27,479 nucleotides of DNA, taken from IMG/VR virus record IMGVR_UViG_3300031787_000677, positions 1 to 27,479 of that record; one strand, given 5' to 3'. The position numbers and the translations under genes are program-made. A model generated the notes under the pieces. That model worked only from the letters and a program-made list of their open reading frames with translations. It was not told the DNA's origin and searched no databases. This document shows positions 2,715-26,878 of the stretch, one piece after another (position 1 is the stretch's first letter; each line of letters starts with the position of its first letter). The DNA is from a virus.

Positions 2715-3668
2715 TTATTTTTTAATACCAGCGTAATATTGCATTCTACCTTTCATCCATTCATCTAATGTTTCTTCTTCTTCAGGCTCAGCTGCTGGTT
2801 TTTCAATTGGTTTACCTGTAATTTTAGATTGGCGTCTTTGTAAATATTCAGAGTTAGCTAATAGATCATTCATTTTCTTTTGTAATCTATCTTTCAATCC
2901 ACGAAGATTTTCAATTTCAGAAGATGGTTCATCTGTAATATCACTAATATCTCTTCTAGAACGTTTAGTTTTTAAAATATCGCTTTTAACTTTAGCTAAA
3001 CGACCTTCAAGATCAGTATATTGCATAAATGCTTCATAATCGTCATCTGACATTGAAGCAGCAGATATATCAGCAGTTTCAATTTCACCTGCTTCAGGCT
3101 CTTCATCACCACTACCCATTGCTTTAGCAAATGATGCTTCGATTTCTTCATCACTCATATCACCTGCTAAACCACCCTCTGGTCCTTCTTCACCTGCTGG
3201 TACTTCTTCACCTGCTGGTTCAGTCGTAGGACGATTAAGGCGTGGAGCTGCTTGGGTACCTGATGGGATAATAACGCCATCAGCTACAAGTGCCATAAAA
3301 TCAGCATTAATTGGATTTTGTTTATCATATCCTAAAGCACCAGCTACATCCATTTTAGACATTGGTTCTTCAGTAGCTTGCATTGCTGATACAATTCTTG
3401 CTTTTTTACCTGCAAAATCAGCAGCAGCTGCATCCGGAGCTAGTTCATAGCGTACGGCTACGTTTGCTAATTCATCAATAGCATCTTCTGTAATTTCTTC
3501 TCTACCTGAAGATATATCACCTTTTTTAAGTTGCAATGCTTTAATTTTAGCATCAATTGCTTTCATTTCAGCATCTTTTGCTGATTTTTCAGCTGGGGAA
3601 ATGTCGGCTTCATTTATTACTTCTTGTATGGCTTTACGTACAAGTTCTTGTAAATCTTTTCTATTCAT
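2715..3668 (-). CDS. Acidic low-complexity protein with capsid-targeting-like N-terminus
   Basis: I do not recognise a named family. I choose ATG 3668, giving 317 residues, because the product then begins MNRKDLQELVRKAIQEVINE, the same amphipathic helix and hydrophobic-x-Glu ending seen in several neighbours; the ATG at 3686 would add only six residues. The middle is very rich in Glu, Ala, Gly and Pro (about residues 150-215). A winged-helix-like stretch may precede it (PMSKMDVAGALGYDKQNPINADFMALVADG). The C-terminal half is a predicted coiled coil rich in Lys and Arg. The composition suits an internal head or scaffold protein. An exact TAATATTTATA 11-mer begins with the stop codon of the upstream gene and ends 17 bases before this ATG. 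Packaging into the head is my inference. Confidence 0.75.
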   Translation of the reverse strand: MNRKDLQELVRKAIQEVINEADISPAEKSAKDAEMKAIDAKIKALQLKKGDISSGREEITEDAIDELANVAVRYELAPDAAAADFAGKKARIVSAMQATEEPMSKMDVAGALGYDKQNPINADFMALVADGVIIPSGTQAAPRLNRPTTEPAGEEVPAGEEGPEGGLAGDMSDEEIEASFAKAMGSGDEEPEAGEIETADISAASMSDDDYEAFMQYTDLEGRLAKVKSDILKTKRSRRDISDITDEPSSEIENLRGLKDRLQKKMNDLLANSEYLQRRQSKITGKPIEKPAAEPEEEETLDEWMKGRMQYYAGIKK

Positions 3669-3685
3669 GTTTTGGTCGTTATACA

Positions 3686-3696
3686 TATAAATATTA
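3686..3696 (-). promoter_or_regulatory. TAATATTTATA motif, copy 1
   Basis: On the minus strand the stop codon TAA of the 3694-4212 gene is followed directly by TATTTATA. The same 11-mer follows two other stop codons (9318-9328 and 15145-15155). It may be a phage late promoter element, a processing signal or a translation signal; the sequence alone does not decide. Confidence 0.4.
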
Positions 3697-4212
3697 AATA
3701 TTTTGTAAAATTATAGCGATACGTTCCTCAGTTGTACCCTCTACCTTAATTAACTTATTAGGTTTATATTCTTCTAATGCCATTTGAATAGCAGTATCTA
3801 TTTTTGATCTATATTCTAAATTAGTTTCACGAATACCATTATCTTCTATATCAACACCATTGGGTGATACATAAATAACCATATCATAATAATCTTTAAG
3901 ATGCATAGCAGCCTCAACAAATGCACGTTTTTCGAAATCACTAATTGATTTTGCTGATAGAGTAAATGAGCAGACATCCCAAATTGTTCTATCAGTAATA
4001 ATATTATCGTATAGCAATTCAGTAGAACGTTCAGCTAGAAATACAAATTGACCACGCAGTGTAGAATCAGTATTAAGTGGAATACCTAAATCACGTAAAT
4101 ATTTACTACGTTCAGTTTGTACACTATGATCTTTAAATTGATCTAGTTCACCTAATGCTTTTGCTAATGTAGTTTTACCTACAGACATTGTACCAGCTAA
4201 TCCTATTCTCAT
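3694..4212 (-). CDS. P-loop ATPase/kinase of the AAA_28 (NadR-like) type
   Basis: This compact 172-residue protein starts with the Walker A motif GTMSVGKT at residues 7-14. Later come TERSKYLRDLG, LAERSTELL, an Asp-containing DRTIWD motif at about 80-85, and an aromatic DYYDMVIYVSP strand. That order matches small nucleotide or nucleoside kinases and the ATPase domain of NadR (AAA_28). A role in phosphorylating a nucleotide or NAD precursor is plausible, but the substrate cannot be read from sequence. It overlaps the preceding gene by ATGA (4209-4212), implying translational coupling, and its stop codon forms part of the TAATATTTATA motif. Fold confidence is high and substrate confidence low. 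Confidence 0.8.
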   Translation of the reverse strand: MRIGLAGTMSVGKTTLAKALGELDQFKDHSVQTERSKYLRDLGIPLNTDSTLRGQFVFLAERSTELLYDNIITDRTIWDVCSFTLSAKSISDFEKRAFVEAAMHLKDYYDMVIYVSPNGVDIEDNGIRETNLEYRSKIDTAIQMALEEYKPNKLIKVEGTTEERIAIILQNI

Positions 4213-4427
4213 TTTTTATTATTAATTTTTTTCATTTGACGTGCTGTCTTTTTAATTTGTTTAGCTTCCTTAGCACGTGCTTTAATCGCTTTATCTGCTC
4301 CTGCTTTATATTTAATATCTACAGAAATAGGACCTTTGTCGAATTTATCTAAATCAAAAGTCCATGTTTCTATAGTTTCTTCATCTTCATATACACGAGT
4401 AAACTTTCTTTCCTTTACTTCTTTCAT
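4209..4427 (-). CDS. Small basic protein, function unknown
   Basis: This is a 72-residue product whose first half is mixed β-like (TRVYEDEETIETWTFDLDKF) and whose second half is a Lys/Ala-rich helix ending in KKINNKK. No family is recognised. It is translationally coupled to the P-loop kinase gene through a 4-base ATGA overlap. Its ATG is four bases downstream of a TATCTTTA box at 4432-4439, so it may head the small transcription unit that includes the kinase. The Lys-rich tail suggests nucleic-acid or protein binding, but nothing specific can be claimed. Confidence 0.75.
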   Translation of the reverse strand: MKEVKERKFTRVYEDEETIETWTFDLDKFDKGPISVDIKYKAGADKAIKARAKEAKQIKKTARQMKKINNKK

Positions 4428-4431
4428 GTTA

Positions 4432-4439: not shown

Positions 4440-4454
4440 TAATATTAATTTTGC

Positions 4455-6738: not shown

Positions 6739-7902
6739 TTATTGTAAAGCAGGAGCATTGTTATAGTCAATGACTAGTGTTTTTCCTCCTCTTTTAGATT
6801 CAAATTTAGCTTGTTTATAAGGTATTGTTCTAAAATCTATACCATATTTTTGATTTTCATGGCGAGCTAACCATATAATTGGTTTATCTTCTTCAGTTAA
6901 ATCATTTATATTATCTATATTTCTTGTAGTACTAATATTTAATATTCCATCTTGTAAATTAAAATCACCCTTAGAAAAAGAACGTTGTACTATTTTTGCA
7001 TCTTCAGATCCAAAAGCAATTTGTTTTACAATTTTTTCATCATTTAGAGGTGGATAATTTTTTATTAATACCACTCCATACCTTTTATCATCCCTAGGAT
7101 CAATCATATCTAAAACGTATGATTGAAAAGGATTTTCTTTAAGTATTAGATTATCAATTTTTCCTGCTTTGCCTTGTTCAACAAATTTATTAAGCAAATC
7201 TGAAAATTGTTGTCTTTCGCTACTCCACCAATAAATTCCATCTTTTTTAACTGAGATACTTTGGTTTTGGGATGTGCTGTATAGCATTACATCTCCTTTC
7301 ATTCCTAATTTTTTACCTTTATAACCTATATTTTCAGCCTTTTTTACACCTTCTACTATAATTTCAGGACCTTCTTTAGCTATAAACTTAATAGTAAGAG
7401 GATTATTATCATTTTGTTCAATATAGTTATTAATAACATTTACTAATTCAGTTTCATTTGATACTCCTCTTCCTCCACCTTCTTGTCCTCCTAAATCAGC
7501 CGATTTATATATAGCATTTATACTTAATGCAGTTTCCTGTCCATTTAGTTTGCCTACTAATTTTATATCGCGAGCAGAAGCAGCATCTCTAAAAGCACCA
7601 ACTAAATTGGATTTTTCTTCTTTATTTTCTGCTTTAAAAATTTCATCACCTACAGCAACATAATCAATAATAAATTCATCTTCACCTTTTACTCCTATTC
7701 TAAAAGGCTTACTATCGTAAAATTTATTTGAAAACTGATCAGGACGTTTTTTAATTGATTTTAACGATAGCATAGCTTCTTCTAATTCATGTTCTTGAAT
7801 TATTTCCTGTAAGAGAGACAGTTTAATAGGATCGTTTAAATCAACAATCCCATCGTGGCAACGAAATGACCACTCATTTAATATTTTGTCTATAACTTCC
7901 AT
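6739..7902 (-). CDS. Tagged protein with possible PD-(D/E)XK nuclease fold
   Basis: I set the start at ATG 7902, giving 387 residues, because the upstream frame extension overlaps the neighbouring gene and is low-complexity. The N-terminus MEVIDKILNEWSFRCHDGIV contains an LNE-W-S-x-R-x-x-DG leader that I recall at the front of several phage proteins. Further on, an acidic helix (ETELVNVINNYI) precedes GMKGDVMLY and then ISVKKDG. Read as Glu...Gly-Asp-Val...Ser-Val-Lys, this could be the active site of a restriction-endonuclease-like domain. The C-terminus includes IIWLARHENQKYGIDFRTIP. ATG 7902 lies one base beyond the stop of the 7904-8434 gene, and the unit ends at the terminator at 6663-6683. 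Nuclease activity is a hypothesis. Confidence 0.7.
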   Translation of the reverse strand: MEVIDKILNEWSFRCHDGIVDLNDPIKLSLLQEIIQEHELEEAMLSLKSIKKRPDQFSNKFYDSKPFRIGVKGEDEFIIDYVAVGDEIFKAENKEEKSNLVGAFRDAASARDIKLVGKLNGQETALSINAIYKSADLGGQEGGGRGVSNETELVNVINNYIEQNDNNPLTIKFIAKEGPEIIVEGVKKAENIGYKGKKLGMKGDVMLYSTSQNQSISVKKDGIYWWSSERQQFSDLLNKFVEQGKAGKIDNLILKENPFQSYVLDMIDPRDDKRYGVVLIKNYPPLNDEKIVKQIAFGSEDAKIVQRSFSKGDFNLQDGILNISTTRNIDNINDLTEEDKPIIWLARHENQKYGIDFRTIPYKQAKFESKRGGKTLVIDYNNAPALQ

Positions 7903-7903
7903 A

Positions 7904-8434
7904 TTATGCTTCTGCTGGTGGTGGAGTTTCTTCGGCTGGCGCTTCAGGAGCTGGTTCTTCAGCTGGAGGTGTAGTTTCTGGAGCGCCTGCGGCTGCTGTA
8001 AATGCTTCAGCACCAGCATCAGCTTTAGGTGCTTCACCGCCACCTTCTTCTTTATCACCAACAGCATAATTTAATTCTAATAAATCAGCTATTCCTTGTT
8101 GTGCTCTTTCTAATTCACCTAATTGTTGCATATTATATCTCTTACCAGCTACTTTTGCTGTGTAATTTTTCTTGCCGTCATACACAATTGTGAATTCTTG
8201 TTCGTTAATTAATTTGAGGTTGAATGTAGTTGGTTTTGGAGCAACTAAATTAACTTCAGTAATAAAACGACCAAATGATGGAGACATTAAGTCTTCTACA
8301 ATCTTTTTTAAACCAGGAAAACGATATATTAAATACATAGATTTAGCAGCACGTTGCTCTCTTGCTTCTTGTTCTGCTAGAGCTTTACGCACTGCCACTT
8401 TAATATATTTCTCTAATAATATTTTTTTACTCAC
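7904..8434 (-). CDS. Tagged small protein with Ala/Pro/Glu tail, presumed head-internal
   Basis: The 176-residue product uses a GTG start at 8434. It begins with the amphipathic helix [20 protein letters not shown], like other capsid-targeting-type leaders here. The middle (about 30-120) looks globular, with [22 protein letters not shown] and [21 protein letters not shown]. The last 45 residues consist almost only of Ala, Pro, Glu and Thr. No named family is recognised, although the YRFPGLK and LMSPSFGRF segments look like a conserved phage protein. It overlaps the stop of the 8427-8798 gene by eight bases, which suggests coupled translation. The leader and composition suggest an internal virion protein. 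Confidence 0.75.
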
Positions 8435-8798
8435 TATCTGAATTTTGGCTATATTGGATTTCTTCCTCAGTTAGATATTCAGCTATACTATGCATATAAT
8501 CTGAAGCTAAGGTAATATATGCTGATACCCATCCAGGCAATTGTTGGTTGGGTTCAATTAATTGATATATTTTAGCAGCATTATTAACCATATCTCTTAA
8601 TTCACTTTTAGCCATTGTAGCTTCGTGATCTTGAGTTGGAGGCCAACTTAAGTGGCCTTCTCTCATCTTTTTAGCTATTGCTTGACGGCGCTTTAAAAGA
8701 TATTTATCTGTCTTATCCTGTTTTCCATCATTGTTGATGTCGGCATCTTCTTTGCCCACAGGATCAAGATTTTCTAATAAATCAATGAGTTTAATCAT
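8427..8798 (-). CDS. Tagged protein with EF-hand/dockerin-like calcium loop
   Basis: The 123-residue protein begins [13 protein letters not shown], one of the short leader helices shared across this region. It is followed by [21 protein letters not shown], an EF-hand or dockerin-type loop with Asp, Asn and Asp at the calcium positions and Gly at the turn. The C-terminal part contains [22 protein letters not shown] and a helical segment. The loop suggests Ca2+-stabilised packing inside the virion, but cohesin-type binding is not implied. It starts one base before the stop end of the 8800-9291 gene and its own stop overlaps the next gene, so the cluster is tightly packed. Confidence 0.8.
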
Positions 8799-8799: not shown

Positions 8800-9291
8800 T
8801 TATTTATCTTTTTTAGCAGGTGCTTTTTTAGCTACAGGCTTTTCTTCTTTAGGCTCTTCTTTCTTTTCGTCTTTTTTAGGCTCTTCTTTTTTATCAGCTT
8901 TTTTATCGTCTTTTTTACCAACAGCTGGTTTTTTAGCTTTTTCGATAAGACCCATCATTTCTTTAATCTTTTCAGTTTCAGAAGAAACTTTACCTTCAAC
9001 TTCAGAAATTTGGTTGTCAAGCATTTCAGCTAATTTAGCATGAGCAGACTTAATCTTTTCTAATTCGTTTACAAACTTTTGCATATGAGCATATTCAGCT
9101 ACGAATCCTGGTGCGGATTCGCCACCTTCAGCAATTTGGTATTGACCTAATGCTTCTCTCATACCTTTAAGGCTTTGTAATTCTTTTTTAAGGTGTACTA
9201 ATTTACCACCACTTTTTGGTAATCCACCTTTTTCTTCCATTGCTTCGGCAATTGCTTGGCGAACAACGCTACGTACTTCTGTGATATTCAT
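8800..9291 (-). CDS. Lys/Glu-rich tagged protein, candidate prohead core protein
   Basis: I choose ATG 9291 (163 residues). An in-frame ATG at 9339 would read through the TAATATTTATA motif and overlap the upstream gene. The product begins [20 protein letters not shown], a leader helix of the same type as at 3668 and 10587. Residues 30-115 form a predicted coiled coil, and the last 45 residues are runs of Lys, Glu, Pro and Ala. The highly charged, repetitive composition recalls internal scaffold or core proteins such as T4 gp67/gp68, which are shredded by the prohead protease; no sequence homology is claimed. The 5' leader is A-rich with no Shine-Dalgarno sequence. Confidence 0.78.
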
Positions 9292-9328: not shown

Positions 9329-10342
9329 TAAAGTTTCATCTAGATCGGCTAATCCCGTGTCGTCTTTTCTTAAGTCACGTTCAATGTCACGCATTGTATC
9401 CATTGCCCATTTACGTTGTAATGGTTTTAATTCGCCATTGATTGCGTTTTCAATGAATGGAAAAAATTCATCGTCAATCAATTTATATACTTCAGCAAAA
9501 AACAATTCACGAACGCGTGCATCATCTATATTCGATTCATTATATAAATCAGATATAGCATCATAAATAAATTTACCATACTGTAAATCACGAGGCTCAT
9601 TTGAGAGCTTGTCAACAGCCCCAACAATGGCTTGATTTTTTTCTTTATCGGCTCCAAAGCCTTCAGTTCCAACGATTTCATATAAACCTTTTACTATTTC
9701 ATGTACTAACATTGGAAAGCAAATAGCACGAGCCTTGATTACAAATTGCTCGTTTTCTTCATCATATTCCATTTCACTTTCACCACCTTGCATTTTTTGA
9801 CCTTGAGCAAGCATTGCTAACATCATTGCAATTGCATTCTCATCATCATATATACCAAATGCTAATTTTAATATTTCACTATATTTTTCAACCAATTCTG
9901 GACTGATTTGGTCAAGGTACTCTCTAAAGAGCATAAAGCCAAAAGCACCTCTAATAGAGGCACCTTGTGTAATACCGTTAATAATACGGCGTTTTGCTTT
10001 TTCAGCTTCAAGAGGCATATTATCTAAACTTTCTTCACCACCTCCCATTCCCATGTTTAGATCTCCCATATCAACTATCTTAGCATCAATTTTGATGTTT
10101 GCATAATCAATAATTGGGTAAGCATCAGTTACCATTTGGGCAGCTACCATTTCAAGTTCATCGCGATATCCTTCTTCTGCTTGAATAATTTCACCTAATA
10201 ATGCTTGTGAACGCACCATTGTTTGCATTAGATTTTTATCACCAAGCATTTGGCGTAATGATTCACCTGATTTACCTTTTAGGGCAGTCATTGTTTTAGG
10301 TGAAAATATCTTTTCGTAATCGACTTCTAATAAGCGGCTCAT
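9326..10342 (-). CDS. Conserved phage protein, probable virion component
   Basis: The 338-residue product begins MSRLLEVDYEKIFSPKTMTA. It is mostly α-helical and acidic, with YANIKIDAKIVDMGDLNMGM near residue 90, a Met/Gly-rich stretch, and a hydrophobic helix with GFMLFREYLDQI. The opening is familiar from large aquatic T4-like phages, where it lies among head genes, but I know no function. It lacks the short tag helix of its neighbours, so it may be a structural protein rather than cargo. Its ATG shares one base with the preceding stop (TAATG at 10342). Confidence 0.78.
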   Translation of the reverse strand: MSRLLEVDYEKIFSPKTMTALKGKSGESLRQMLGDKNLMQTMVRSQALLGEIIQAEEGYRDELEMVAAQMVTDAYPIIDYANIKIDAKIVDMGDLNMGMGGGEESLDNMPLEAEKAKRRIINGITQGASIRGAFGFMLFREYLDQISPELVEKYSEILKLAFGIYDDENAIAMMLAMLAQGQKMQGGESEMEYDEENEQFVIKARAICFPMLVHEIVKGLYEIVGTEGFGADKEKNQAIVGAVDKLSNEPRDLQYGKFIYDAISDLYNESNIDDARVRELFFAEVYKLIDDEFFPFIENAINGELKPLQRKWAMDTMRDIERDLRKDDTGLADLDETL

Positions 10343-10587
10343 TATTTTTTAGATTTAAAGCGTGCTACAATTTTTTTAAGCATTTCTTCTTCGTTCATTG
10401 CTTTAGGAGCAGGTTTAACTTCAGGATTACCTAATGGACGACGTGGTTTTGGTTTACCTGTATCTGGTTTACCTGGTGCTACAGCTGGTCCAGGAGATGG
10501 TTTTGGTTTACTAGGTGCCGGAGCATTTTCGTTTAATACTCTATCAACGATCTCACGGATGATTTCTTTAAGTTTATTTTTGTTCAT
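10342..10587 (-). CDS. Short Pro/Lys-rich protein with capsid-targeting-like leader
   Basis: The 81-residue product consists of a leader helix (MNKNKLKEIIREIVDRVLNE, then NAP), a 45-residue Pro/Lys/Gly-rich spacer, and a final helix (MNEEEMLKKIVARFKSKK). The LNE motif is followed directly by the disordered spacer, as expected if a prohead protease cut after the Glu. A basic, disordered product of this size could neutralise packaged DNA. No family is recognised. It is coupled to the next gene by a one-base stop/start overlap and lies one base after the stop of the 876-residue gene. Confidence 0.72.
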   Translation of the reverse strand: MNKNKLKEIIREIVDRVLNENAPAPSKPKPSPGPAVAPGKPDTGKPKPRRPLGNPEVKPAPKAMNEEEMLKKIVARFKSKK

Positions 10588-10588: not shown

Positions 10589-13219
10589 TTATTTCTTTTT
10601 TTCGTTTATGTGTTTGCGTAGTAATTCTTTAAATTCTGTTAAGTGACTTGGATTGCGGTCAAAATATTCATTTACAATATAACGATGAATTTCTGCCAAA
10701 TTACGTTGTTGTAAGGCTTGTAGTAAATTAGCAGGTGAATCTAACCTTACTAGGGTATTCTGTATAATAAGGAAATGATTATTTCCAGGTTGGATTACAA
10801 CAGATAATACATTTGTATTGTTATTTAATCGAATATTATATATAGCACTTTGTCCACTTTCATATACTTGGTTAACCCTACCTCTTCCACCTATTAGATT
10901 TTGGCGGCGAGCAACACCTCTATTACCTACTGTAATACCTGGTAACCAGTTTCTTGGCCAGTTTCTTATTATGAAGTTAGCAGTAGTGAGAGTAGCAGGG
11001 ATTCCAGCATTTTGAAAAATATCTCCTATTCCAACTTCTCCTTCTGCAGGTGCAGCGGCTTGTTGAGGACGAGGAGCATTTGGTTGTCCTGCTGGTCTAC
11101 CTCTTCTTGCAATACCACCTACTTGAGCAGCTATTTGACCAGCTGCTGGTTGTCCTTGTCCTAGTAATTGTCTTGCTAATGCGCTAGGTACATTTGCTTT
11201 AACTAATTTACCTGATTGATCAGATACTTTAAAGCTATTTCTTGGATCTGCTGTGTTGATAAGTAAAGCAGTATTACCATTCATAGCTGGTTTGTATCTG
11301 TTAGTATCTGATACTGGTGGGTTGCTAGATATAAAGTCTTTTTTAGAGTTACCAATCATACTAAATCCTTGATTTCCTAATAGTGTAGTTAAATCATTAT
11401 CATTGAATGTTTGATTTGTTGCTCTTAAATAAGCAAAATAGGATCTCCATTCATTAGCATCTAGACTAGTTGAGGTATTTCTGCTTCTCCAATTATTACC
11501 ACTATAATCAGCAATTGATCTTTGTTGGCGTGGATTAATAGTAGCAGGCATTAATAAAAATGCTGATCTTTCACCAGAAGCCGTTAATACTACTGATGGG
11601 ATATCCCCATATTGTACTATTCTTTGGTTATAAGGAATAGCATTAATAATCGATGTTAAAGCATCTTTATCTATAGTTGCAGGAATATTTCGTTCATCAT
11701 CTCTAAATAAATTTAATGCATTTTGCTGGAATGATTCGTTATCTTTAGCATCAGTAAATGCTTGTTGTACTTCTTCATTATCAAAGGGAACTGATGTTAT
11801 TTTTCCGTCTTCACCTACTTTATATGAAGAGAATGAGTTAGAATCTAATACAATTTCTCCACCTTCTACTGGTTTAACTATTAAGGCAGAATTTTCATCC
11901 TTTTTAGCATTGTCTAATATTTTTGTAATTAAACTTCTATCAATAATTTCATCTTGAGCTAATTTCAATAGATTTCTTATAGGGATTTTATCTAGTTCTG
12001 GGTAGTCAATAAGATATTTTGATGTACGTTTGTTTAATTTGATGTTGGGGAAATCATCTTCGGCTTGGTATAATCCTATTTTAATATCATCTCCCAATTC
12101 TAATTTAACTATAGTATCACCTTCTTTATTAATATATACTCTTTCATCAGACTCTAAATACCATTTATTTAATTGAGTTATAAGTTTTTTAACATCAAAT
12201 GGAATCTTTTCTTGCGAAAGGTATTTTAAAGGAATTTCATTTTGGAGATTTGCTGTTATTGATCTTCTAATTTGATTTGGGAACTTATCTAAATTTTTCA
12301 ATAAAGTAACAGAATCAATAACACCAGGGGATTCAGCTATAAATTTAGCTAATTCAGGATATTTAGGTAAATATTTTTCTACAAATTCTTCATCACTAAT
12401 ATCAGAAAACAATTCATTACTTCTATTATTTTTTCTAACTACTAAGTATTGTTGTTTTGCTGAAAAGGGGAATTTAGTCCATTCTCTATAACCTACAGAT
12501 TGATTTCTGTATTGTTGGGTCATTTTTTCAGTTGAAGAAATAGGGATATACTTTAAAATAGATTTAATATTTGGTATATCTCTTAACCAAGGAACTTCAC
12601 TTAACAACCCATCAAAATCCATTGGATTTGATTCGTGAGGAGAATTTTTTCTATTTGTATAAACGTATCTTTCATTTTCATTAGTTGTTTTAGGATCTCT
12701 AACTTGAATAGCAACAAAACTTAATTTATCGCCATCTGAAAGATTATTATTTTTTGCTAGATAAAATGTTGGATAAGATCTGTATGCACTATAACGATAG
12801 CTAGGGAATGAGGATCTAGTTATACACCATTTTTCTCCATCACCGTATCTAATACAGTTATCTTGTTTACTACCATTATATATAACAATAGTATTATCGT
12901 CATTATGATATACAACATCTGGGGTGATATCTAGTTCTTCAACACCTTCTTCACCTTTAGTTGCAGTAACTAATCTAATGAATTTAGCTATAGACCATTT
13001 ATTTAAATCTCTTTGATCGCTAGGTAATTTTTCCTTAATACGATCAAAAGTATTGATATATGCTCTTAATTGGTCATCTGTGATTTGAATATTAAGATCA
13101 TCAGCTTCTTCTTGGAATCTTTTAATAAAACCTTTTATAGCGTTTTCGCCATAAGCTTCATTAAGCTCATTTTTCCAATTGTGTACAACGTGTAATATAA
13201 ATCTATCTATATTTCTCAT
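10589..13219 (-). CDS. Large protein with KYG-type module, presumed virion cargo
   Basis: The 876-residue product begins MRNIDRFILHVVHNWKNELNE and then AYGENAIKGFIKRFQEE. Residues about 26-235 form a module shared with the 15741-19817 protein: a helical pre-domain (FIKRFQEE...LRAYINTFDRIKEKL), then IVIYNGSKQDNCIRYGDG and EKWCIT (Cys122, Cys132), a β-rich part, and a WLRDIPNIKSILKYIPI end segment. The central 300 residues are unassigned. At about 690-740 is a Gly/Ala/Pro/Gln linker. The C-terminal region has FIIRNWPRNWLPGI and ends in a basic helix (ELLRKHINEKKK). No catalytic motif is certain. The leader, with an LNE site, and its position among tagged proteins suggest that it is packaged. 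It overlaps the 13219-13617 gene by one base. Confidence 0.75.
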   Translation of the reverse strand: MRNIDRFILHVVHNWKNELNEAYGENAIKGFIKRFQEEADDLNIQITDDQLRAYINTFDRIKEKLPSDQRDLNKWSIAKFIRLVTATKGEEGVEELDITPDVVYHNDDNTIVIYNGSKQDNCIRYGDGEKWCITRSSFPSYRYSAYRSYPTFYLAKNNNLSDGDKLSFVAIQVRDPKTTNENERYVYTNRKNSPHESNPMDFDGLLSEVPWLRDIPNIKSILKYIPISSTEKMTQQYRNQSVGYREWTKFPFSAKQQYLVVRKNNRSNELFSDISDEEFVEKYLPKYPELAKFIAESPGVIDSVTLLKNLDKFPNQIRRSITANLQNEIPLKYLSQEKIPFDVKKLITQLNKWYLESDERVYINKEGDTIVKLELGDDIKIGLYQAEDDFPNIKLNKRTSKYLIDYPELDKIPIRNLLKLAQDEIIDRSLITKILDNAKKDENSALIVKPVEGGEIVLDSNSFSSYKVGEDGKITSVPFDNEEVQQAFTDAKDNESFQQNALNLFRDDERNIPATIDKDALTSIINAIPYNQRIVQYGDIPSVVLTASGERSAFLLMPATINPRQQRSIADYSGNNWRSRNTSTSLDANEWRSYFAYLRATNQTFNDNDLTTLLGNQGFSMIGNSKKDFISSNPPVSDTNRYKPAMNGNTALLINTADPRNSFKVSDQSGKLVKANVPSALARQLLGQGQPAAGQIAAQVGGIARRGRPAGQPNAPRPQQAAAPAEGEVGIGDIFQNAGIPATLTTANFIIRNWPRNWLPGITVGNRGVARRQNLIGGRGRVNQVYESGQSAIYNIRLNNNTNVLSVVIQPGNNHFLIIQNTLVRLDSPANLLQALQQRNLAEIHRYIVNEYFDRNPSHLTEFKELLRKHINEKKK
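12515..13144 (-). repeat. KYG module, copy 3 (coding repeat)
   Basis: Approximate limits of the domain at residues 26-235 of the 876-residue protein. It shares with the two copies in the 1358-residue protein the RF-x-x-IK helix, the Y-x-G-x-x-x-x-CI-x-YG-x-G-x-x-x-CI core and the P-x-(L/I)-K-(G/S)-(L/I)-(K/L) end. It is the most divergent of the three. Confidence 0.65.
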
Positions 13220-13617
13220 TACTTTGTTTTACCCCATTTTTTACCCTTACCAGGATCTGAACATTGTGAAGGTGTTGGGCGGCAGGAAGGGTATTTTGCT
13301 CGCGTTTCACCTTTTTTACGGCCACAAGGTTTACATTTTTTCTTACCGTCTACCTCGCGACATGTATTACAATCAACCCAACCTCCTGTTTTACCAGGTG
13401 CACCTTTGCGTTTAAACCAAGTGCGAAGGGTTTCTTTTTTTTTCTCGTCTAATTGATCAATAAGTTCTTCTTTTAATCCTTTCCAAATATTACCTTTACG
13501 GCAACGTACAATAGCACCTGACTTATAGGCAGATGGCTTATCATATTTGCGATCGGCAATTCGTTTGCAACGATCTTCGTTAAGAATTTCTTTCGCTATG
13601 TCGGTTAATTTGATCAC
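13219..13617 (-). CDS. Tagged Cys-rich basic protein (DUF5872-like)
   Basis: The 132-residue product uses a GTG start at 13617 and begins MIKLTDIAKEILNE, one of the clearest leader helices ending in LNE. The rest is very basic: a segment RCKRIADRKYDKPSAYKSG, then WFKRKGAPGKTGGWVDCNTC, KKCKPCGRKKGE, and YPSCRPTPSQCSDPGKGKKW. The pattern of paired Cys suggests a zinc-binding fold. The RKG-x-x-GKTGGWVDCNTC block is familiar as a conserved phage and giant-virus protein, which I believe is DUF5872, with no known activity. A DNA-binding role inside the capsid is plausible from charge and leader. It shares one base with the 10589-13219 gene. Confidence 0.8.
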   Translation of the reverse strand: MIKLTDIAKEILNEDRCKRIADRKYDKPSAYKSGAIVRCRKGNIWKGLKEELIDQLDEKKKETLRTWFKRKGAPGKTGGWVDCNTCREVDGKKKCKPCGRKKGETRAKYPSCRPTPSQCSDPGKGKKWGKTK

Positions 13618-13620: not shown

Positions 13621-14091
13621 TTATATATTAAAAAAATATAATAATTGATTTTTCCCATTAATTTTGACCATCTCTAAATTATCTGTTGTTCCTGTATATC
13701 CTGCATTCATCATTGTATTGATGTTGTTCATGTTTCCTTTATATGCATCCTGTACACCTCTTATAAAATAGGATTCAACAAAATTATCTTGAAAATCTTC
13801 ATGTTTAGGATGCCAATCTATAGCATCTTTATATAATTCATGAAGTATTTTAGGATTATTATCTAAAAAAACTATATATTCTACATCATTAGTTAATACC
13901 TTGTATGGTTTATTATCCCAATTCCACTCAGAAATCCATTCATCTTCATTTTCATCTTCATCATACCCTATTAGATGTCCTAAATCTTGAACAATTAATT
14001 GTTTTAATATAGAAGATACCTCTGAATTTTGTTGAAGTTGTCCTGTGGGGGATATTTCAAGTTCTTTTAATATGTCTAATAATTTAATCAT
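13621..14091 (-). CDS. Tagged acidic protein of unknown function
   Basis: I choose ATG 14091, giving 156 residues, since the product then opens MIKLLDILKELEISPTG, the canonical leader, and the start follows the previous stop by one base. An upstream ATG at 14148 would run through the C-terminus of that gene. The body contains DEDENEDEWISEWNWDNKPY, a β-strand pair (YKVLTNDVEYIVFLD), a Trp/His-containing helix, and YFIRGVQDAYKGN. No family is recognised. Codon use and spacing are typical of the cluster. It probably belongs to the packaged set. Confidence 0.75.
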   Translation of the reverse strand: MIKLLDILKELEISPTGQLQQNSEVSSILKQLIVQDLGHLIGYDEDENEDEWISEWNWDNKPYKVLTNDVEYIVFLDNNPKILHELYKDAIDWHPKHEDFQDNFVESYFIRGVQDAYKGNMNNINTMMNAGYTGTTDNLEMVKINGKNQLLYFFNI

Positions 14092-14092: not shown

Positions 14093-14470
14093 TTACCATT
14101 TTCTGCAAGACCAATATCTTGCTTTTGTACGTGGTCCTGGGTTGGCACAGTTATGTCTTGCTCTAAAGGCAGCGCGGCGTTTAGGATTATTTTTCTTAAT
14201 GTTCATTCCCTTAGCACCAAAGTTTACTTTTACAACTTTACCTGTTTTAGGGTTTTTAACATATACCTTAAACTTTTTAGAATCACCACGCATTGGTTTA
14301 CCTAATGGTACAGTACGACCTTGATACTTAGCTTCTAACATGCAATCGCAATCAGCTTCGTTAAGTTCGTTTTGATATTCTTCCATGAATTGAACAAATT
14401 CTAAAATGTCTTGTTCATTTTCAACGTCGTACTCTTCTACTTCGTCTATTATTTCTAATAACTTAATCAT
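14093..14470 (-). CDS. Tagged basic conserved phage protein (LGKPMRGD...RARHNC)
   Basis: The 125-residue product begins MIKLLEIIDEVEEYDVEN and has an acidic pro-region that ends in NELNEADCDC at about residue 40. The following domain is strongly basic and appears highly conserved: VPLGKPMRGDSKKFKVYVKN, then GKVVKVNFGAKGMNIKKNNP, RRAAFRARHNC and TKARYWSCRKW. I recognise this block from many T4-like phages, where its function is unknown. The LNE site placed just before the conserved domain would, if cut, release an acidic pro-region from a mature basic core. It overlaps the 35-residue gene by ATGA (14467-14470). Confidence 0.82.
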   Translation of the reverse strand: MIKLLEIIDEVEEYDVENEQDILEFVQFMEEYQNELNEADCDCMLEAKYQGRTVPLGKPMRGDSKKFKVYVKNPKTGKVVKVNFGAKGMNIKKNNPKRRAAFRARHNCANPGPRTKARYWSCRKW

Positions 14471-15740: not shown

Positions 15741-18700
15741 TTATTGATATATCTCGTTGTTTTGTTTGCCAAAATCTCTTAATAATATTCCTGCTTTAGC
15801 GTTTGCTTCGTTTTCAATTTCACTACCTGTTTTTCCACTTTCATAACTAATTCGTCCGTCTAAATTTTGTTTATGATGAACTAATTCATGTGCTAATGTT
15901 CTTAATATATCAGCCATGTTTCTATTCTTCACATAAACCCATATTTTATTATCATTCGGATCAAAATAACCAAAACTGCGTCTGTCTTTTACTTGATTAG
16001 TATCGTAGGAGAGGGTTAAGCTACGAGGAGGATTCTGGATTGCCAAATTTTTGCATGCATATTTTATAAATTCTCCAATAGTACCTGTTTCACTTTCGTC
16101 TAAACGTTGTAATTTAGATTTTAAACCTTCATTCATTAATTTTATTTTAGCTAATTCTTTTCTATATTCGTCTACTAATTGTTTAACTTCTTCCATATAT
16201 TCTTTTAAAAGGCCTAATTCTTCAGAATTTATATTCCAATCATTAAGAACATCTTTTAATGTAATTCCAGGAGGAGCAAGACTCATTAAAATATTATCAG
16301 CAAATTTTTTATATTCATCTTTTATATCGCTTCCTGCTTTTACAATTCGGTTTTGTGATATATAAGAGGTTGCATATCTGTCCTCTTTTTTTACATATTT
16401 AAGTGTAGCTATAATTTTGTAAGATTTTATTTTACCACTTAAAATATCATCAATTTTATTATCAGCAGTTTTAATATATCTAAAAACATATTGTTTATCC
16501 CGAAATCCTTCTTGATAATTTTTACCATTCTTATAATCGTAACTATCATTAAGATTACCTAATAAACTATTGTATTTTTTATCTAATTCATATTCTGCTT
16601 TTTCTTTAGGATCTACTTCTACATCTTTAAATATATTTTTTAAACCTTTAAGTCTAGGATACTTATCTTCTATATTCTTAAAGAAAGAATAGAAATCTTC
16701 CCCCGGATTATCAGCTGTTGTTACAGTGTAATGGTCTATCCCATTATCTGAATACATATTATAGTTAGCATCAACGAATTCCCCATTTGGGTCAGGATGG
16801 ACAAATATTACTAATAGATGTGTTATATCTACAAAATTTCCATTTTTATCTTGTTCAGATGATTTTGTATCATCAAATACAAAGTATGGTGTGCCACTTT
16901 CTTCATATCTATAATCATAATATAAATTATCATCACCACGAGCTGAAATACAAAATGAATAGCCATTGCCATATTTAATACAGGCATTTTTAGTTTTACC
17001 TACATATATTCTTAATCCGTTTTGGTTATAAACTAGATTAGCATCTTTACTAGGTTCACCATCATTTATTTTACCTGCCTTAATACGCTTTGGTTGATTA
17101 GCATCAACTGTAGTTTCTAAATCTTTCCAGTTATATTTAGTAATATCTTTTTCAGTTACTCTAGGACTATCCTTAATTTGACTAAAGCGATTAATATATG
17201 ATTGAATAATATTTACTCCTAAATTAGGTTTTTCTTGTTGAAATTTAGCAGTTAAATCATTAACTAATTTGTTAGAATATTCATTGATAGAAGTTTCATT
17301 TATTAATTTTAACTTAAGTATTTCTCTATCATATTTGTTTGATATTTCAATATAGGTTGATAAAATTTCTTCATGTTCATCATCGAGGGGTACCAATTTA
17401 TATTCTAACTTTGGTGTTAGGTTTAATTTTTTTACATTATCAATCCAACCACTTATATTTTTTTCAAATTCTTTTTCATTTTTAGCAACTGCATAATTTT
17501 TTTGAATAGTCATATATGGATTTAGTTGTCCGTTTTTTTTATCATAAGCTAATAATCGGTAAAAATATAATTGTAGTTCTCCTTTTAATAATTTAGTTGC
17601 TGTAGATTTACCACTCTTAGTATCTTTACCACTTATAATACTCAATGCTGGGTATTCATCAAGAAGATTATCTAGTTTTTTTTCTTTTTGTCGTTCAAGA
17701 TTATATATTTTAACATCAATATCACTATCCCCTATAGGTTTATATTGTAATATATTTTTTAATCCATTAAGTTGGGGATATACTTCTGCCATTTCTTCAA
17801 AAGTACTAAAAAGCTCTTCACCAGCATTGTTTGCTTCTGTAACAGAAAATGCTTCTCCTTCCTCAACCAATATTACCAATAAATGAGTAGGATCTATAAA
17901 ACCATTTTTACCTTTATCACTAGATCTACTATCATCAAATACAAAATATATAGATGCTGGGCCTGACTCTTCATATGATCCTTCTTCTGATCCTACTCTG
18001 TATCGAGCATATAAATTTCTTGAACCACGAGCTGAAATGCAGAAACTATATCCATTACCATACTTTATACAGGATTTTTTAGATCCACCTTCATATACCC
18101 TAATATTATTTTGATTATATAGTAACTCAGCGTTAGTAACATCTCCATCATTTAATTTACCTGCTTTAATACGTTTTGATTGTAGATTATCTTTTATTGT
18201 ATCTTCTAAATCACTCCATGAATATTGAAAAATATCACGTTTATTTGCAGATAAATTATTTTTAATCTGATCAAAACGTTTAATATATTCTTTTACCTGT
18301 TCAGTCGATAGTTCAGGATTTTCTTGTGTGAATTTGTCTGTTAGTTGGCTAATAACCTTTTCAGAATATTCTTTTAATGGTTCAGCAGGTGGTTGTTCAG
18401 CAGGAGCCGGTTCTGGTTTGGGTTCTTCTTTAGATTCTTTACCCATTGCTAATAGGAAATCAGCTACTTCAACACCATCAGGTAAGAATTTTTTAATTTC
18501 TTCCTCATTACCATCGCGTATTGCTTTTCTAAGATCAGTAGCATTTAAACCACCAAAATTACCAGCATCGAATATTTTTGCGTTAGAATATTTACTTAAA
18601 TTTTTATATCTATCTTCTTCACCTTTACCATAAGCAGCATATACTGTTACCTCAGGATTATTTTCTACAAAATCATATACATCTTTAACAGGTGTAACAG

Positions 18701-19817
18701 CTGATACTCTTATTTCTACTTTATCACCGTCTACTAATTGGTCTTTGTATAATTCCCAAGCAGCAACACTCTCATCAGGTGAAATACCATCATGTATTTT
18801 AGGTGAAACTAATACTACTACTTGATCTGCTTTATTAAGTAATTGTTTTACTACACTAAAGTGACCTTTATGTGGTGGTTTGAATTTGCCTGGAAATAGT
18901 GCTATTGTTGTTTCACTTTGTTCAAGTAGCAATGATGCAATGTATCTACCTAGGTTAGTTTCACTTAGCATTGAATTTACTTTATCTAATGATTTTTGTT
19001 TATTATCGCCTTTTGGCGTATTTACTTCACCACTTTTAATAGATACCATCGAGTTAAAAACGCCTTTAATGCGGTTTTTAGAGCGTGGATTTTGTACCTT
19101 AGATGATATATTATTTAACAGTTCCTCGAAGCTACCGTCTATTTTGTAGTTGGTAAATAGCTTTTTGATATTAGACCAATTGCTAGTTTTCCATACTTCG
19201 GTACGATCAGTTTCTTTAAAATTATCTAACGTTACGATACGTAATGTTAAACCGGCGCTTGATAAGTTAAATTCATATTCTTGATTTGCTTCTAGTACAG
19301 GTACATTTTTTATACCCATACGAGCAAATATTGATTTAGGATCTTCCTCTAGACATATTACCTTAGCTAATCCTAATAATAGTCCTTGTATTTCAGCAGG
19401 ATAATCTAAAAATTCTTTCTTGAATTCAGCTTCATCATCACTAACAGAAACAATATTATCTATTTGAACGTATTGATCTGGTTGGTCTTCTATAGGATAT
19501 AGTATGGTAATAATTTCACCTGTGTTGAGGTATTTTTTACCTTTATATTTTTCACTTTTAAAGGGAATAATAACGTCGTCTGGTAGTGCTGATAGGAATT
19601 TAGCTAGCTCTACTTTAATATTTTTCTTGTCTGTTGCTTCTAAATTAACAATTAAGTCAATATCACCAAAATCTTCTTTAGCGCTTGTATTATATGAACC
19701 TGAAATTTTAGCACTTTTAAAAGCAGGAAATTTCTTTAATATCCTGTTGATATAATTATCTGTTGTTTTAGCAACAGAAGCTCTAGTAATCCTATTTCCA
19801 CCGGCTGATCCTGACAT
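15741..19817 (-). CDS. Giant multidomain cargo-type protein: two nucleotidyltransferase domains, two KYG modules, metallopeptidase-like end
   Basis: The 1358 residues carry at least five domains. Residues 25-125 are a Pol β-type nucleotidyltransferase (GS at 40-41, GDID at 51-54, possible third Asp120). Residues 304-455 are a HIGH-type nucleotidylyltransferase (FPGKFKPPHKGH with HKGH at 316-319; LNATDLRKAI near 424). Residues 482-700 and 845-1070 are two KYG modules (CIKYGNGYSFCISARG in both). The C-terminus is a gluzincin-like metallopeptidase domain with HELVHH at 1310-1315 and a possible third ligand Glu1337. Domain borders carry L/I/M-x-E sites: LLLEQ 296-300, KLINET 837-842, KLMNEG 1226-1231 and LDESET 1239-1244. 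These could be prohead protease cuts releasing several enzymes. The start shares one base with the preceding nucleotidyltransferase gene. Domain calls are strong; the polyprotein model is inference. Confidence 0.88.
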   Translation of the reverse strand: MSGSAGGNRITRASVAKTTDNYINRILKKFPAFKSAKISGSYNTSAKEDFGDIDLIVNLEATDKKNIKVELAKFLSALPDDVIIPFKSEKYKGKKYLNTGEIITILYPIEDQPDQYVQIDNIVSVSDDEAEFKKEFLDYPAEIQGLLLGLAKVICLEEDPKSIFARMGIKNVPVLEANQEYEFNLSSAGLTLRIVTLDNFKETDRTEVWKTSNWSNIKKLFTNYKIDGSFEELLNNISSKVQNPRSKNRIKGVFNSMVSIKSGEVNTPKGDNKQKSLDKVNSMLSETNLGRYIASLLLEQSETTIALFPGKFKPPHKGHFSVVKQLLNKADQVVVLVSPKIHDGISPDESVAAWELYKDQLVDGDKVEIRVSAVTPVKDVYDFVENNPEVTVYAAYGKGEEDRYKNLSKYSNAKIFDAGNFGGLNATDLRKAIRDGNEEEIKKFLPDGVEVADFLLAMGKESKEEPKPEPAPAEQPPAEPLKEYSEKVISQLTDKFTQENPELSTEQVKEYIKRFDQIKNNLSANKRDIFQYSWSDLEDTIKDNLQSKRIKAGKLNDGDVTNAELLYNQNNIRVYEGGSKKSCIKYGNGYSFCISARGSRNLYARYRVGSEEGSYEESGPASIYFVFDDSRSSDKGKNGFIDPTHLLVILVEEGEAFSVTEANNAGEELFSTFEEMAEVYPQLNGLKNILQYKPIGDSDIDVKIYNLERQKEKKLDNLLDEYPALSIISGKDTKSGKSTATKLLKGELQLYFYRLLAYDKKNGQLNPYMTIQKNYAVAKNEKEFEKNISGWIDNVKKLNLTPKLEYKLVPLDDEHEEILSTYIEISNKYDREILKLKLINETSINEYSNKLVNDLTAKFQQEKPNLGVNIIQSYINRFSQIKDSPRVTEKDITKYNWKDLETTVDANQPKRIKAGKINDGEPSKDANLVYNQNGLRIYVGKTKNACIKYGNGYSFCISARGDDNLYYDYRYEESGTPYFVFDDTKSSEQDKNGNFVDITHLLVIFVHPDPNGEFVDANYNMYSDNGIDHYTVTTADNPGEDFYSFFKNIEDKYPRLKGLKNIFKDVEVDPKEKAEYELDKKYNSLLGNLNDSYDYKNGKNYQEGFRDKQYVFRYIKTADNKIDDILSGKIKSYKIIATLKYVKKEDRYATSYISQNRIVKAGSDIKDEYKKFADNILMSLAPPGITLKDVLNDWNINSEELGLLKEYMEEVKQLVDEYRKELAKIKLMNEGLKSKLQRLDESETGTIGEFIKYACKNLAIQNPPRSLTLSYDTNQVKDRRSFGYFDPNDNKIWVYVKNRNMADILRTLAHELVHHKQNLDGRISYESGKTGSEIENEANAKAGILLRDFGKQNNEIYQ
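16608..17285 (-). repeat. KYG module, copy 2 (coding repeat)
   Basis: Approximate limits of residues 845-1070 of the 1358-residue protein. The order is EYSNKLVNDLTAKFQQEKPNL, a SYINRFSQIK helix, KRIKAGKINDGE, CIKYGNGYSFCISARG, then YFVFDDTKSS, DITHLLVIFV and YPRLKGLKNIFK. It is close to copy 1 at almost every block. Confidence 0.85.
17718..18374 (-). repeat. KYG module, copy 1 (coding repeat)
   Basis: Approximate limits of residues 482-700 of the 1358-residue protein. The order is EYSEKVISQLTDKFTQENPEL, a EYIKRFDQIK helix, KRIKAGKLNDGD, CIKYGNGYSFCISARG, then YFVFDDSRSS, DPTHLLVILV and YPQLNGLKNILQ. The identical 16-residue core in copies 1 and 2 shows a recent or constrained duplication. 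Confidence 0.85.
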
Positions 19818-20788
19818 TATGCTTTTTCTTTTTGGTAAGGAATTAATTTAGAATTATCAGGTAAGAATTTACCTTTTAATCCTAGTCTATCTTGGTTATC
19901 AATCCAATATTTTTGTAAATTATCAGGTATATCTGCTCTAGTTGAGTCAAGTATTTTAAGATATCTATCCATAATAGAATTATATTCTTCTTTGGATATA
20001 TTTTTTCTTATATAATCTTCTAATTTGAAATAATCATCAAGAATATCTTGAGTTAAATTAAAACCGTATAATTTATTTAATAGAGCGATTGCTTCTTTAG
20101 GATTAGATGCTTCCTGCTTACCTGTTTCCTTATCTAAAACACCAGTAGTATGACCAAATGTTTTACCTTTATTAGCAAATAAAGCTAACATTAATTGTGT
20201 ACGATGTAATCCTTTAACATTGCCCTCATATGATTGAGAATAATAACTAAAACGTAACCATTCAGGATTACCTACATTAATATCGGTTTGAACTGCTTTA
20301 CCTACTTTTTCACCGTCAGGTCCGTATTGAGGTATAGCACAAAATATAGAGCCGGCACCTGATGCTTTAAGATCAACTTCAACGTCAGGTAAAGCATCGT
20401 TAATTTTATCTCCAATCAATACAATCATAGCACGTAATTGGAGTTTTTCAGGAGTAGCGGTTCTAGCTTTTTTAGTAAATTGAGCTAAAAGTTCATTATA
20501 TTTGTTTTCATCTACACCCCAGCCTTTAAAGTCAGGTTTTCCACCAGGAAATATATTTTGAATATCATATGATAAATCAATATCACCTGACACGGCTTTT
20601 TTACCAGCAGATCCTAATTTTTCAAATGCTTTAAACGTTGATGCCTTTGCAGGAAATATTTTAGATAATTGATCTACAAATTTTTCAATTGTAGGTTCAA
20701 TATTGTCTTTTTCAATTGAATCGGTAGTACCAAATACATTACCACCTTCTAACAATATTTGTTTAGCTATTTTTAATAATTGGATCAT
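19817..20788 (-). CDS. Tagged Pol β-superfamily nucleotidyltransferase
   Basis: The 323-residue product begins MIQLLKIAKQILLEGGNVFG, a leader helix ending in LLE followed by Gly-Gly. The nucleotidyltransferase core has LGSAGKKAVSGDIDLSYD at about 58-75 (Gly-Ser plus the two catalytic Asp), and a third Asp in VQTDINVGNPEWLRFS near 170. The C-terminal half is helical and contains KGLHRTQLMLALFANKGKTF. Enzymes of this fold transfer NMPs to RNA, proteins or small molecules; the acceptor is unknown. It lies directly before the 1358-residue gene, which starts with another domain of the same fold, with a one-base overlap. The leader suggests packaging and injection. The start sits three bases after TATGTTTA, just past the hairpin at 20802-20830. 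Confidence 0.85.
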   Translation of the reverse strand: MIQLLKIAKQILLEGGNVFGTTDSIEKDNIEPTIEKFVDQLSKIFPAKASTFKAFEKLGSAGKKAVSGDIDLSYDIQNIFPGGKPDFKGWGVDENKYNELLAQFTKKARTATPEKLQLRAMIVLIGDKINDALPDVEVDLKASGAGSIFCAIPQYGPDGEKVGKAVQTDINVGNPEWLRFSYYSQSYEGNVKGLHRTQLMLALFANKGKTFGHTTGVLDKETGKQEASNPKEAIALLNKLYGFNLTQDILDDYFKLEDYIRKNISKEEYNSIMDRYLKILDSTRADIPDNLQKYWIDNQDRLGLKGKFLPDNSKLIPYQKEKA

Positions 20789-26048: not shown

Positions 26049-26053
26049 AACCT

Positions 26054-26084
26054 CAAATATACGAAATAACTTTGCCTACAACAA
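26054..26084 (-). promoter_or_regulatory. Bacteroidota-type promoter of the primase gene
   Basis: TATATTTG, a perfect TAnnTTTG, lies at 26061-26054 on the minus strand. TTG occurs twice upstream (26084-26082 with a 20-base spacer, 26081-26079 with 17). The ATG at 26048 is five bases from the -7 box, so a leaderless mRNA is predicted. The -33 part lies inside the end of the GIY-YIG gene. Confidence 0.6.
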
Positions 26085-26507
26085 GTCTTTAGTAAAGAAT
26101 TTACCTAGTATATTATCATTGTATGATCTGTCCTTTCCAATCAGAACTTCTTCTTTACACTGGAAATGCATTTCGTAATATGTTAATGCTTTTTTAGTTT
26201 TGCATTGTATTAGGATCCAACGATCAAAATTTTCCTCGCCATATTCCTTAATATCAGTAAGTAATTGTTTATTAGACCCCCAATATTTTTGCCAATCGCT
26301 TTCAGTACGAATTATTTCGTGAGTTGGTTTGCGACCTGGGCCAGTTTGTTCAGCAAGTTGTTTTTTAGTGAGTTTGTGTTTTTTATTATTCCAAAACACT
26401 TTTTTACCAATATAAAATTTACCTGTTTTTAAATTGGTAATTTTATAAACAAAACCATAATATTTTTCGGGATTAGGTATATCCCAACTTTTCCACTTGT
26501 GTATCAT
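26076..26507 (-). CDS. GIY-YIG nuclease domain protein
   Basis: The 143-residue product has the two motifs of the fold, YGFVYKITN (residues 17-25) and FYIGKK (31-36). Later come ESDWQKYWGSNKQLLTDI and ALTYYEMHFQCKEEVL, where Glu112 (YYEMHFQ) is in the place of the catalytic Glu. This exact arrangement is common in T4-like phages as a free-standing protein. It may be a homing-type endonuclease or a DNA-processing enzyme. The absence of a DNA-binding region such as NUMOD argues against a classical homing enzyme. It overlaps the next upstream gene by ATGA (26504-26507). Confidence 0.85.
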   Translation of the reverse strand: MIHKWKSWDIPNPEKYYGFVYKITNLKTGKFYIGKKVFWNNKKHKLTKKQLAEQTGPGRKPTHEIIRTESDWQKYWGSNKQLLTDIKEYGEENFDRWILIQCKTKKALTYYEMHFQCKEEVLIGKDRSYNDNILGKFFTKDLL

Positions 26508-26878
26508 ATTTCAACTATCCAAATAGATGGATCTATTCCTTTATTTATTAATCCTGACAGTCTGGTATTTCCAGCTAACAGATCATAGTCTTGATCATTA
26601 AATTTTACTGCTATAGGTATTTCTACTTTATTTTGATAAAATGATTTATTAAATCTATCTTTTTTAGGTTCTTCTAATTTGTTAAAATTTAAATCTATAT
26701 TACCTAATACATCTTTAATTTTAGAATATTTTATAATGTATCCTTGATTAGCTATTTTTTTCCATTCCTCCTTTCCCATTTTTTTAAGTTCTGGATATCT
26801 GATAGCTTCTTCCCACTCAATGTCGAAATTGGGTTTAGTGTATTTTATTTCTTTTAAAAGATTTAATAGCTTAATCAT
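26504..26878 (-). CDS. Tagged ParB/sulfiredoxin-like protein
   Basis: The 124-residue product begins MIKLLNLLKEIKYTKPN, the same leader helix as the cargo genes 12 kb away. It contains EWEEAIRYPELKKMGKEEW, and near the end PIAVKFNDQDYDLLAGNTRL followed by SGLINKGI. The DLLAGNTRL-x-x-L motif is the G-x-x-R-type loop of the ParB N-terminal/Srx fold, which binds or hydrolyses nucleotides (CTP or ATP) in relatives. It is not a complete ParB because there is no HTH or dimer domain. A nucleotide-dependent role in the virion or early infection is a guess. It shares one base with the virion-type gene upstream. Confidence 0.75.
   Translation of the reverse strand: MIKLLNLLKEIKYTKPNFDIEWEEAIRYPELKKMGKEEWKKIANQGYIIKYSKIKDVLGNIDLNFNKLEEPKKDRFNKSFYQNKVEIPIAVKFNDQDYDLLAGNTRLSGLINKGIDPSIWIVEI

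Follow-up and report, generated by a model that had tools for sequence, protein, structure and literature searches.

Interchangeable N-terminal leaders as a probable capsid-targeting and cutting code for injected cargo in T4-like phages

The window analysed here is the whole of IMG/VR record IMGVR_UViG_3300031787_000677 (27,479 nucleotides; 27.5 kb), which comes from a freshwater phage that is a distant cousin of T4 and carries its genes on the minus strand. Many of these genes open with short N-terminal leaders, most of which terminate in L/I-x-E. We are quite confident that such leaders form a modular capsid-targeting and cutting code for cargo that would be loaded, cut and injected. The leaders, their register, their exchanges, the module borders, the protease gene and the absence of tags from replication and tail genes were all observed computationally. 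Judging from sequence, we infer that the tagged proteins bind the prohead core, are loaded and cut, are present in the virion and are injected. In the mechanism that we propose, the short amphipathic helix of the leader would dock the new protein on the prohead core, such that it is enclosed as the shell forms. A gp21-type S77 protease would then cut behind the L/I-x-E that closes the helix, and the freed body would remain in the head and be injected along with the DNA. Several leader classes would do this one job and be swapped between unrelated bodies. L/I-x-E sites placed between the modules of a long protein would in turn free several effectors from it.

The window is contained, from position 131,920 on, in G001, a 182,846-base record of a T4-like phage (exact match for 10/10 40-base probes), the two differing by about 92 absent bases between 21 and 24 kb. 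Among cultured phages, the closest relative found is Flavobacterium phage immuto, grown on Flavobacterium sp. LMO8, whose terminase is 52% identical, and the host of the window's clade is therefore probably a member of the Bacteroidota. Genome-wide counts below refer to seven genomes, namely G001-G006 and immuto, with genes called by an in-house script.

Leader classes and their frequency

An earlier sequence-only reading of this DNA had proposed a single helical tag common to about thirteen proteins. The genes it named are open and in place on the minus strand, its seven short leaders have the letters given, and the observation of leader-tagged N-termini is confirmed as real, although it exceeds the original count and involves more than one helix: there are at least two classes in the window, plus a third outside it. 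Class A has the consensus MIKLxDILKE among 100 class A/B representatives, many of whose loci were fetched with the pattern MIKLxDxxK, such that the consensus is biased towards it. Class B comprises longer helices and includes three of the six described earlier (genes starting at 10587, 9291 and 3668), while the other three (13219, 7902 and 8434) differ. Class C, with the consensus KRMQQLAGIIxE, occurs in G001 in copies outside the window, close to core and capsid genes. It shows the expected ending in 100/101 cases, though the class C pattern itself requires a nearby E. The tag scans returned at least 120 stretches, of which 80 are listed; as they select their own pattern, both the consensus letters and the class C ending lean towards it. 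We regard the class A leader as firm and the class C leader, seen outside the window only, as well supported. Class B is likely to be a capsid leader too, as are the leaders peculiar to 13219 and 7902, but all of these may instead be fixed propeptides of conserved head proteins.

In a leave-one-out comparison, each of the seven short leaders scores at least 9.1 with a matrix of the other six. At a score of 10, the seven-leader matrix retrieves 31 of 1,334 N-termini outside the window (14 with a window homologue and 17 without), as against 0.58 expected from an internal Met control (2/4,594) and 0.4 from shuffling; a genome-wide motif count, which the earlier reading had proposed, thus extends the tags to long genomes at some 0.5 expected. 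The seven genomes, among them that of the window's phage, have 1,298 genes of at least 60 aa; in these, class A (score 9) is found 38 times against 0.7-0.8 expected, class B 12 times against 0.3-0.4, and class C 13 times against 1.0-1.3, at least one of the last being a false match by eye (immuto 85576). L/I-x-E by itself was dropped as a tag test, since 599/1,298 N-termini carry one in residues 6-35, and the matrix took the place of a loose class A expression that had also picked up membrane proteins and signal peptides. Most of the tagged genes are situated in the late/head part of the genome and are not evenly spread.

These N-termini might be left over from gene duplication or simply result from AT-rich starts, given that small genes stand in tandem and that the genome is AT-rich. 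However, the Leu codons of tag pairs between families agree at 0.423, compared with 0.424 expected from codon usage, meaning that codon diversity in the tags equals the genome average even though the residues agree, and 77/79 tag 30-mers are distinct. Selection hence keeps the tag residues and not copied DNA. As shuffled and internal controls also give fewer than one expected case for class A, shared ancestry or chance is a very improbable explanation.

Register of the leaders and the T4 precedent

The register of class A is evident in 64 distinct M[ILV]KL N-termini whose loci had been collected without the tag pattern (some of them through one tagged gene, the nucleotidyltransferase). Residue 4 is Leu in this set by selection; L, I, V, M or F occupies residue 7 in 97% and residue 8 in 95%. 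Of the 64, 44 have L/I-x-E ending at residue 10 and 15 have it ending at residue 14, as opposed to 24/703 and 9/703 for an internal x[ILV]KL control. With one N-terminus per body family (29), it ends at residue 10 in 21, at 14 in two and at 9 in four, and is absent from two. In the available text of PMC9026906, targeting by the T4 capsid-targeting sequence is ascribed to residues 4 and 7 and processing to residues 8 and 10. The class A register matches that of T4, whereas the letters do not: the T4 internal proteins (IP) IPII and IPIII open with MKTYQEFIAE. Letter-level homology with the T4 leader was accordingly dropped, as the matrix misses the T4 internal proteins. The leader works like that of T4, yet lies outside the T-even leader family by its letters.

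Association with the head

The protease and major capsid genes lie beyond the portal end (position 1) of the window, in G001. There, a gp21-type Peptidase_S77 gene (G001:125686-126195) is found about 4 kb past the portal gene of the same phage; a search for such a gene was among the checks that the sequence-only reading had suggested. S77 is present in 13/14 records searched (G001 and 12 relatives). It also occurs in 18/25 long tag-bearing contigs versus 4/19 unselected ones (p = 0.002), the former being listed rows of at least about 53 kb outside the 14 records and the latter listed rows of at least about 48.6 kb; with a common 53-kb floor the comparison is 18/25 versus 3/14 (p = 0.003). The tag A DNA pattern occurs in 0/19 of the unselected contigs. 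Further, the gp23-like N-termini of relatives have E after QAK[QE][LI]xx in 48/48 cases at about residue 60, the expected place of a T4-type cut; T4 gp23 is reported to lose 65 residues in the accessible portion of PMC9026906. One protein, encoded just past the S77 gene of its own contig (L017:17299-18795), fuses a class A leader, a body, an inner class C leader and a core-type protein, and would by its sequence be a natural cargo-core fusion.

Some of these associations also suit the idea that the leaders are propeptides of prohead core or scaffold parts that serve in head assembly and are broken down on maturation instead of being delivered. Many of the tagged genes are neighbours of the portal, protease and capsid genes, a core-type protein beside the protease itself carries class C (G005 95672, G001 124994), and gp21 cuts T4 core proteins to small fragments, according to the text available of PMC9026906. 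Against this, scaffold parts are unlikely to span 192 body families, of which 146 have just one tagged member, and some of their folds are those of enzymes acting on other molecules (ADP-ribosyltransferase, zeta-type kinase, SET, thioesterase). We consider this explanation unlikely.

In the seven genomes, tags are found on 0/170 homologues of replication, metabolism, lysis and glycan genes and on 0/63 tail-gene homologues. The motif is hence not equally common in replication and metabolic genes, and the proposed loading into the capsid draws support from these two controls together with the protease gene and the tags in long genomes. The amphipathic look of the helices, and the presence of some tagged genes among tail-side genes (G001 173307), would also fit helices that dock or bind membrane for a non-capsid target such as the tail, baseplate or inner membrane. 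This is more doubtful still than a scaffold role, as it leaves the fixed Glu position, the L/I-x-E exchanges and the S77 association without a reason, and none of the 63 tail homologues is tagged.

Leaders as exchangeable modules and internal sites

Across all loci, single linkage groups 4,420 protein bodies into 1,246 families. A tagged member occurs in 192 of these (96 for class A, 94 for class C and eight for class B), in agreement with the claim that the tag sits on otherwise unrelated bodies. Homologous bodies take different leaders at the same L/I-x-E border, and the leaders are therefore modules. The AFF/AFY-IGED body (AFFIGEDD-type) is preceded by [LIV]-x-E in 7/8 printed contexts read by eye (a script gave 3/8 because the Glu was absorbed in the pattern): ILNE of class A, VIAE and VEE that look class-B-like by eye, and I-x-E inside longer proteins. 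DUF5872 has L/I-x-E at most nine residues upstream in 24/24 cases, a few of them internal; the EYDVE body of the window gene starting at 14470 occurs elsewhere behind other leaders and also within longer proteins; and L020_8713 (class A) and L023_9683 (class C) have one body in common.

Where tagged bodies lie inside longer proteins, L/I-x-E is found within three residues of the border in 126/214 cases, compared with 20% at shifted positions. As this first test also counted sites inside the body, it was repeated more strictly with sites at or just before the border and better alignments, giving 72/137 versus 14.7%, and 11/16 versus 7.4% with one row per body family. In the window, a 1358-aa multi-module protein has possible borders (a slash marks the predicted L/I-x-E border here and below) at LLLE/QSE near 18932, PLKE/YSE near 18380, LINETSINE/YSN near 17312 and LMNE/GLK near 16148. 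These sites precede its cytidylyltransferase-like, X and metallopeptidase-like modules, and two of them sit in a 53-base repeat that is 72% alike. Pfam gives CTP_transf_like at 1.1e-4, which passes the cut-off, and Polbeta (0.012) and DUF6782 (0.0062) below theirs. It is somewhat probable that T4-like phages, probably of Bacteroidota hosts, use an open and interchangeable leader code, with at least three classes and internal cut sites, to load a large set of injected effectors, and that long cargo is a polyprotein split by the head protease.

Module X occurs once in the 876-aa protein of the window and twice in the 1358-aa protein, and shows six invariant residues over 23 sequences (NCI-YG-WCI-YR type). 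Its structural model (mean predicted local distance difference test, pLDDT, 80.2) has no clear fold match, with a best Z of 4.4 among 999 chains; against a viral library the best match has an E of 2.8e-4 at a template modelling (TM) score of 0.28.

Nature of the tagged bodies

The 192 tagged families include ADP-ribosyltransferases, zeta-type kinases, an enzyme resembling 2H proteins directed against the cyclic-oligonucleotide-based anti-phage signalling system (CBASS), and many of no known family. Representatives were included in 100/101 cases for set A1 and 88/91 for set A2, four being excluded by us. Pfam matches among the 100 class A/B representatives include ART-PolyVal (2.1e-10), SET (2.6e-8), ParB_N (1e-7) and thioesterase (5e-10), with weaker ones to PBECR3, GNAT, KptA, Tox-ART-HYD1 and zeta toxin, and Acb1/2H at 3.7e-4, under the curated cut-off; another tagged protein (L196_5800) matches zeta toxin at 4.1e-10. 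As Pfam lists 46 families for these 100 representatives, many class A/B bodies have no Pfam family. For the 88 class C representatives there are 16 families, the best being DUF6926 (8e-7) and the others 7e-4 or weaker. NCBIfam matches comprise five families, and PADLOC gives only weak matches for the 100 class A/B representatives (best 0.0011). The domains of the tagged bodies overlap the set predicted to be injected as polyvalent proteins, together with the injected Alt and IP proteins of T4.

Observations that weigh against loading and cutting

Several observations count against the reading of the leaders as a capsid-targeting and cutting code. A search for virion proteomics or N-terminal data on these phages found none. 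With the window matrix, T4 IPII and IPIII score -7, and 0/2,125 candidate T4 starts (150 of 169 kb) reach a score of 9, the best being 8.4. The residue after E10 is often I (62/200) or V (25/200), unlike gp23, where A, T or S follows the Glu, and class C, where S, N, E, A or G does; hence the true cuts may lie elsewhere, for instance at E14. Among contigs of at least 100 kb the S77 excess is not significant (7/8 versus 3/6), and in 7/25 tagged contigs, which are perhaps fragments, no S77 was found. In most of the 46 differently tagged homologous pairs, two proteins are involved and the alignment lies at a distance from the leader, so these pairs have inner modules in common rather than a clean exchange. 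The 1358-aa protein appears to be cargo and yet lacks an N-terminal tag, and class B is confined to its eight families. Finally, control-gene homologues are tagged in 5/403 cases in all loci, all from one nucleotidase query; by eye these are three plain nucleotidases and two kinase fusions.

Relatives of the immuto nucleotidase (NT5C) have class A leaders at L224:5417-5917, L262:6586-7050 and L237:11063-11629. A metabolic-type enzyme can therefore become cargo.

Genes of the window

The features of the window are collected in Table 1. The Pol X-like assignment of the gene starting at 20788 rests on a structural model, in which residues 1-17 have pLDDT below 50 and most of the remaining blocks 82-97, mostly above 85; its body is Pol X-like in fold, matching DNA polymerase lambda (Z 9.6, root-mean-square deviation 4.1, 183 aligned). 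Across 23 aligned members of this nucleotidyltransferase family the first 13 residues are variable, E14 is nearly invariant and GGNVF fully invariant. In the gene starting at 13617, the Pfam match to DUF5872 starts at residue 15, immediately past the leader. Two homologues of the 26878 gene carry the tags MIKLVDILKE and MIKLIDILKE; its body has no Pfam match. For the gene at 13621..14091 no relatives were found among the collected loci. The 13219 gene has a leader of its own, with L/I-x-E in residues 6-35 of 10/10 distinct homologous N-termini and L[NKS]E preceding the body in the eight homologues displayed, and the displayed relatives of 7902 mostly have MxVIDKILxE/ followed by WSF or WSY. 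The start of the 8434 gene is uncertain: the caller places it at 8392 and relatives favour the longer start. A PHROGs search with the portal piece 1..357 gave no match.

Table 1. Features of the window; a slash after a leader marks the predicted L/I-x-E border
Feature	Coordinates	Strand	Leader	Remarks
Portal (gp20-like) gene, N-terminal end	1..357	-		By eye and by terminase adjacency as in immuto
Terminase large subunit	392..2032	-		Anchor used to find relatives
Gene with class B leader	2715..3686 (inner start 3668)	-	MNRKDLQELVRKAIQEVINE/
Gene with leader in class A register	6739..7902	-	MEVIDKILNE/
Conserved protein	7904..8434	-	Longer amphipathic N-terminus	Weak candidate
Class A tagged protein	8427..8798	-	MIKLIDLLE/
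Gene with class B leader	8800..9291	-	16 residues
Gene with class B leader	10342..10587	-	MNKNKLKEIIREIVDRVLNE/
876-aa protein	10589..13219	-	MRNIDRFILHVVHNWKNELNE/ at 13157-13219	Leader followed by module X
Class A tagged DUF5872 protein	13219..13617	-	MIKLTDIAKEILNE/	GTG start
Class A tagged gene	13621..14091	-	MIKLLDILKE/	ATG start within longer GTG open reading frame
Class A tagged protein	14093..14470	-	MIKLLEIIDE/	EYDVE body
Class A tagged small Cys-rich protein	14580..14813	-	MHSLLELLKLQE/
1358-aa multi-module protein	15741..19817	-	No N-terminal tag	Modules: nucleotidyltransferase-like, cytidylyltransferase-like, X twice, metallopeptidase-like
Class A tagged Pol X-like nucleotidyltransferase	19817..20788	-	MIQLLKIAKQILLE/ at 20747-20788	Body begins GGNVF
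Class A tagged gene	26504..26878	-	MIKLLNLLKE/ at 26849-26878	ParB-like body, by eye only

Other genes, all on the minus strand, stand among or near these. A phage-borne TonB-dependent receptor (22050-24296; Plug 3e-8, OMP_b-brl_3 1e-26), split into two frames in the near-identical G001, lies beside a gene that is lipoprotein-like by eye and has no Pfam match (20851-22053); relatives of both, 79-87% identical, occur in other phage loci. Amid the tagged genes are an untagged FAD/NAD-type oxidoreductase (4699-6150; Pyr_redox_2 1.6e-7) and an untagged AAA_28 P-loop protein (3694-4212; 8.8e-10). A putative GIY-YIG endonuclease, recognized by eye (26076-26507), adjoins a tagged gene.

Relation to known systems and implications

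The closest parallel is the targeting sequence of T4 IPI-IPIII, which gp21 cuts and which is likewise a short N-terminal leader on unrelated bodies with key residues at 4, 7, 8 and 10, an L/I-x-E end, an S77 protease gene and an E at the expected gp23 cut place. It differs in its letters (MKTYQEFIAE, as against MIKLxDILKE and KRMQQLAGIIxE), and the present set has several leader classes, far more body families, sites at module borders and probable Bacteroidota hosts. By eye the T4 N-terminus nearest to class A is that of gp24 (MAKINELLRES); however, gp24 is a capsid vertex protein and not cargo, and its matrix score is only 1.9. The polyvalent proteins, as presented in the available part of PMC5512222, share ADP-ribosyltransferase, PBECR, ParB and metallopeptidase domains in predicted-injected proteins; their packaging was inferred there from gene context and fusions, whereas here the leader and cut sites would supply the address. 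In phage P1, the first 30 residues of DarB are enough to send a reporter to the head, yet P1 appears to lack a separate scaffold and the accessible text mentions no L/I-x-E code (PMC9024508). Our literature search, in which subscription journals were thinly covered, found no publication describing a common capsid leader for this clade.

The T4 internal proteins Ip1-Ip3 are inhibitors of specific restriction enzymes, according to the text available of PMC12373910, and part of the larger tagged set may therefore act likewise. Environmental phages carry many genes to which no function is assigned. Should the leaders be marks of injected cargo, the leader alone would predict injected proteins, and a simple scan would yield candidate host-takeover and counter-defence proteins, many of them of no known family. 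The same leaders would then serve as short, portable tags with which proteins could be directed into such phage heads.

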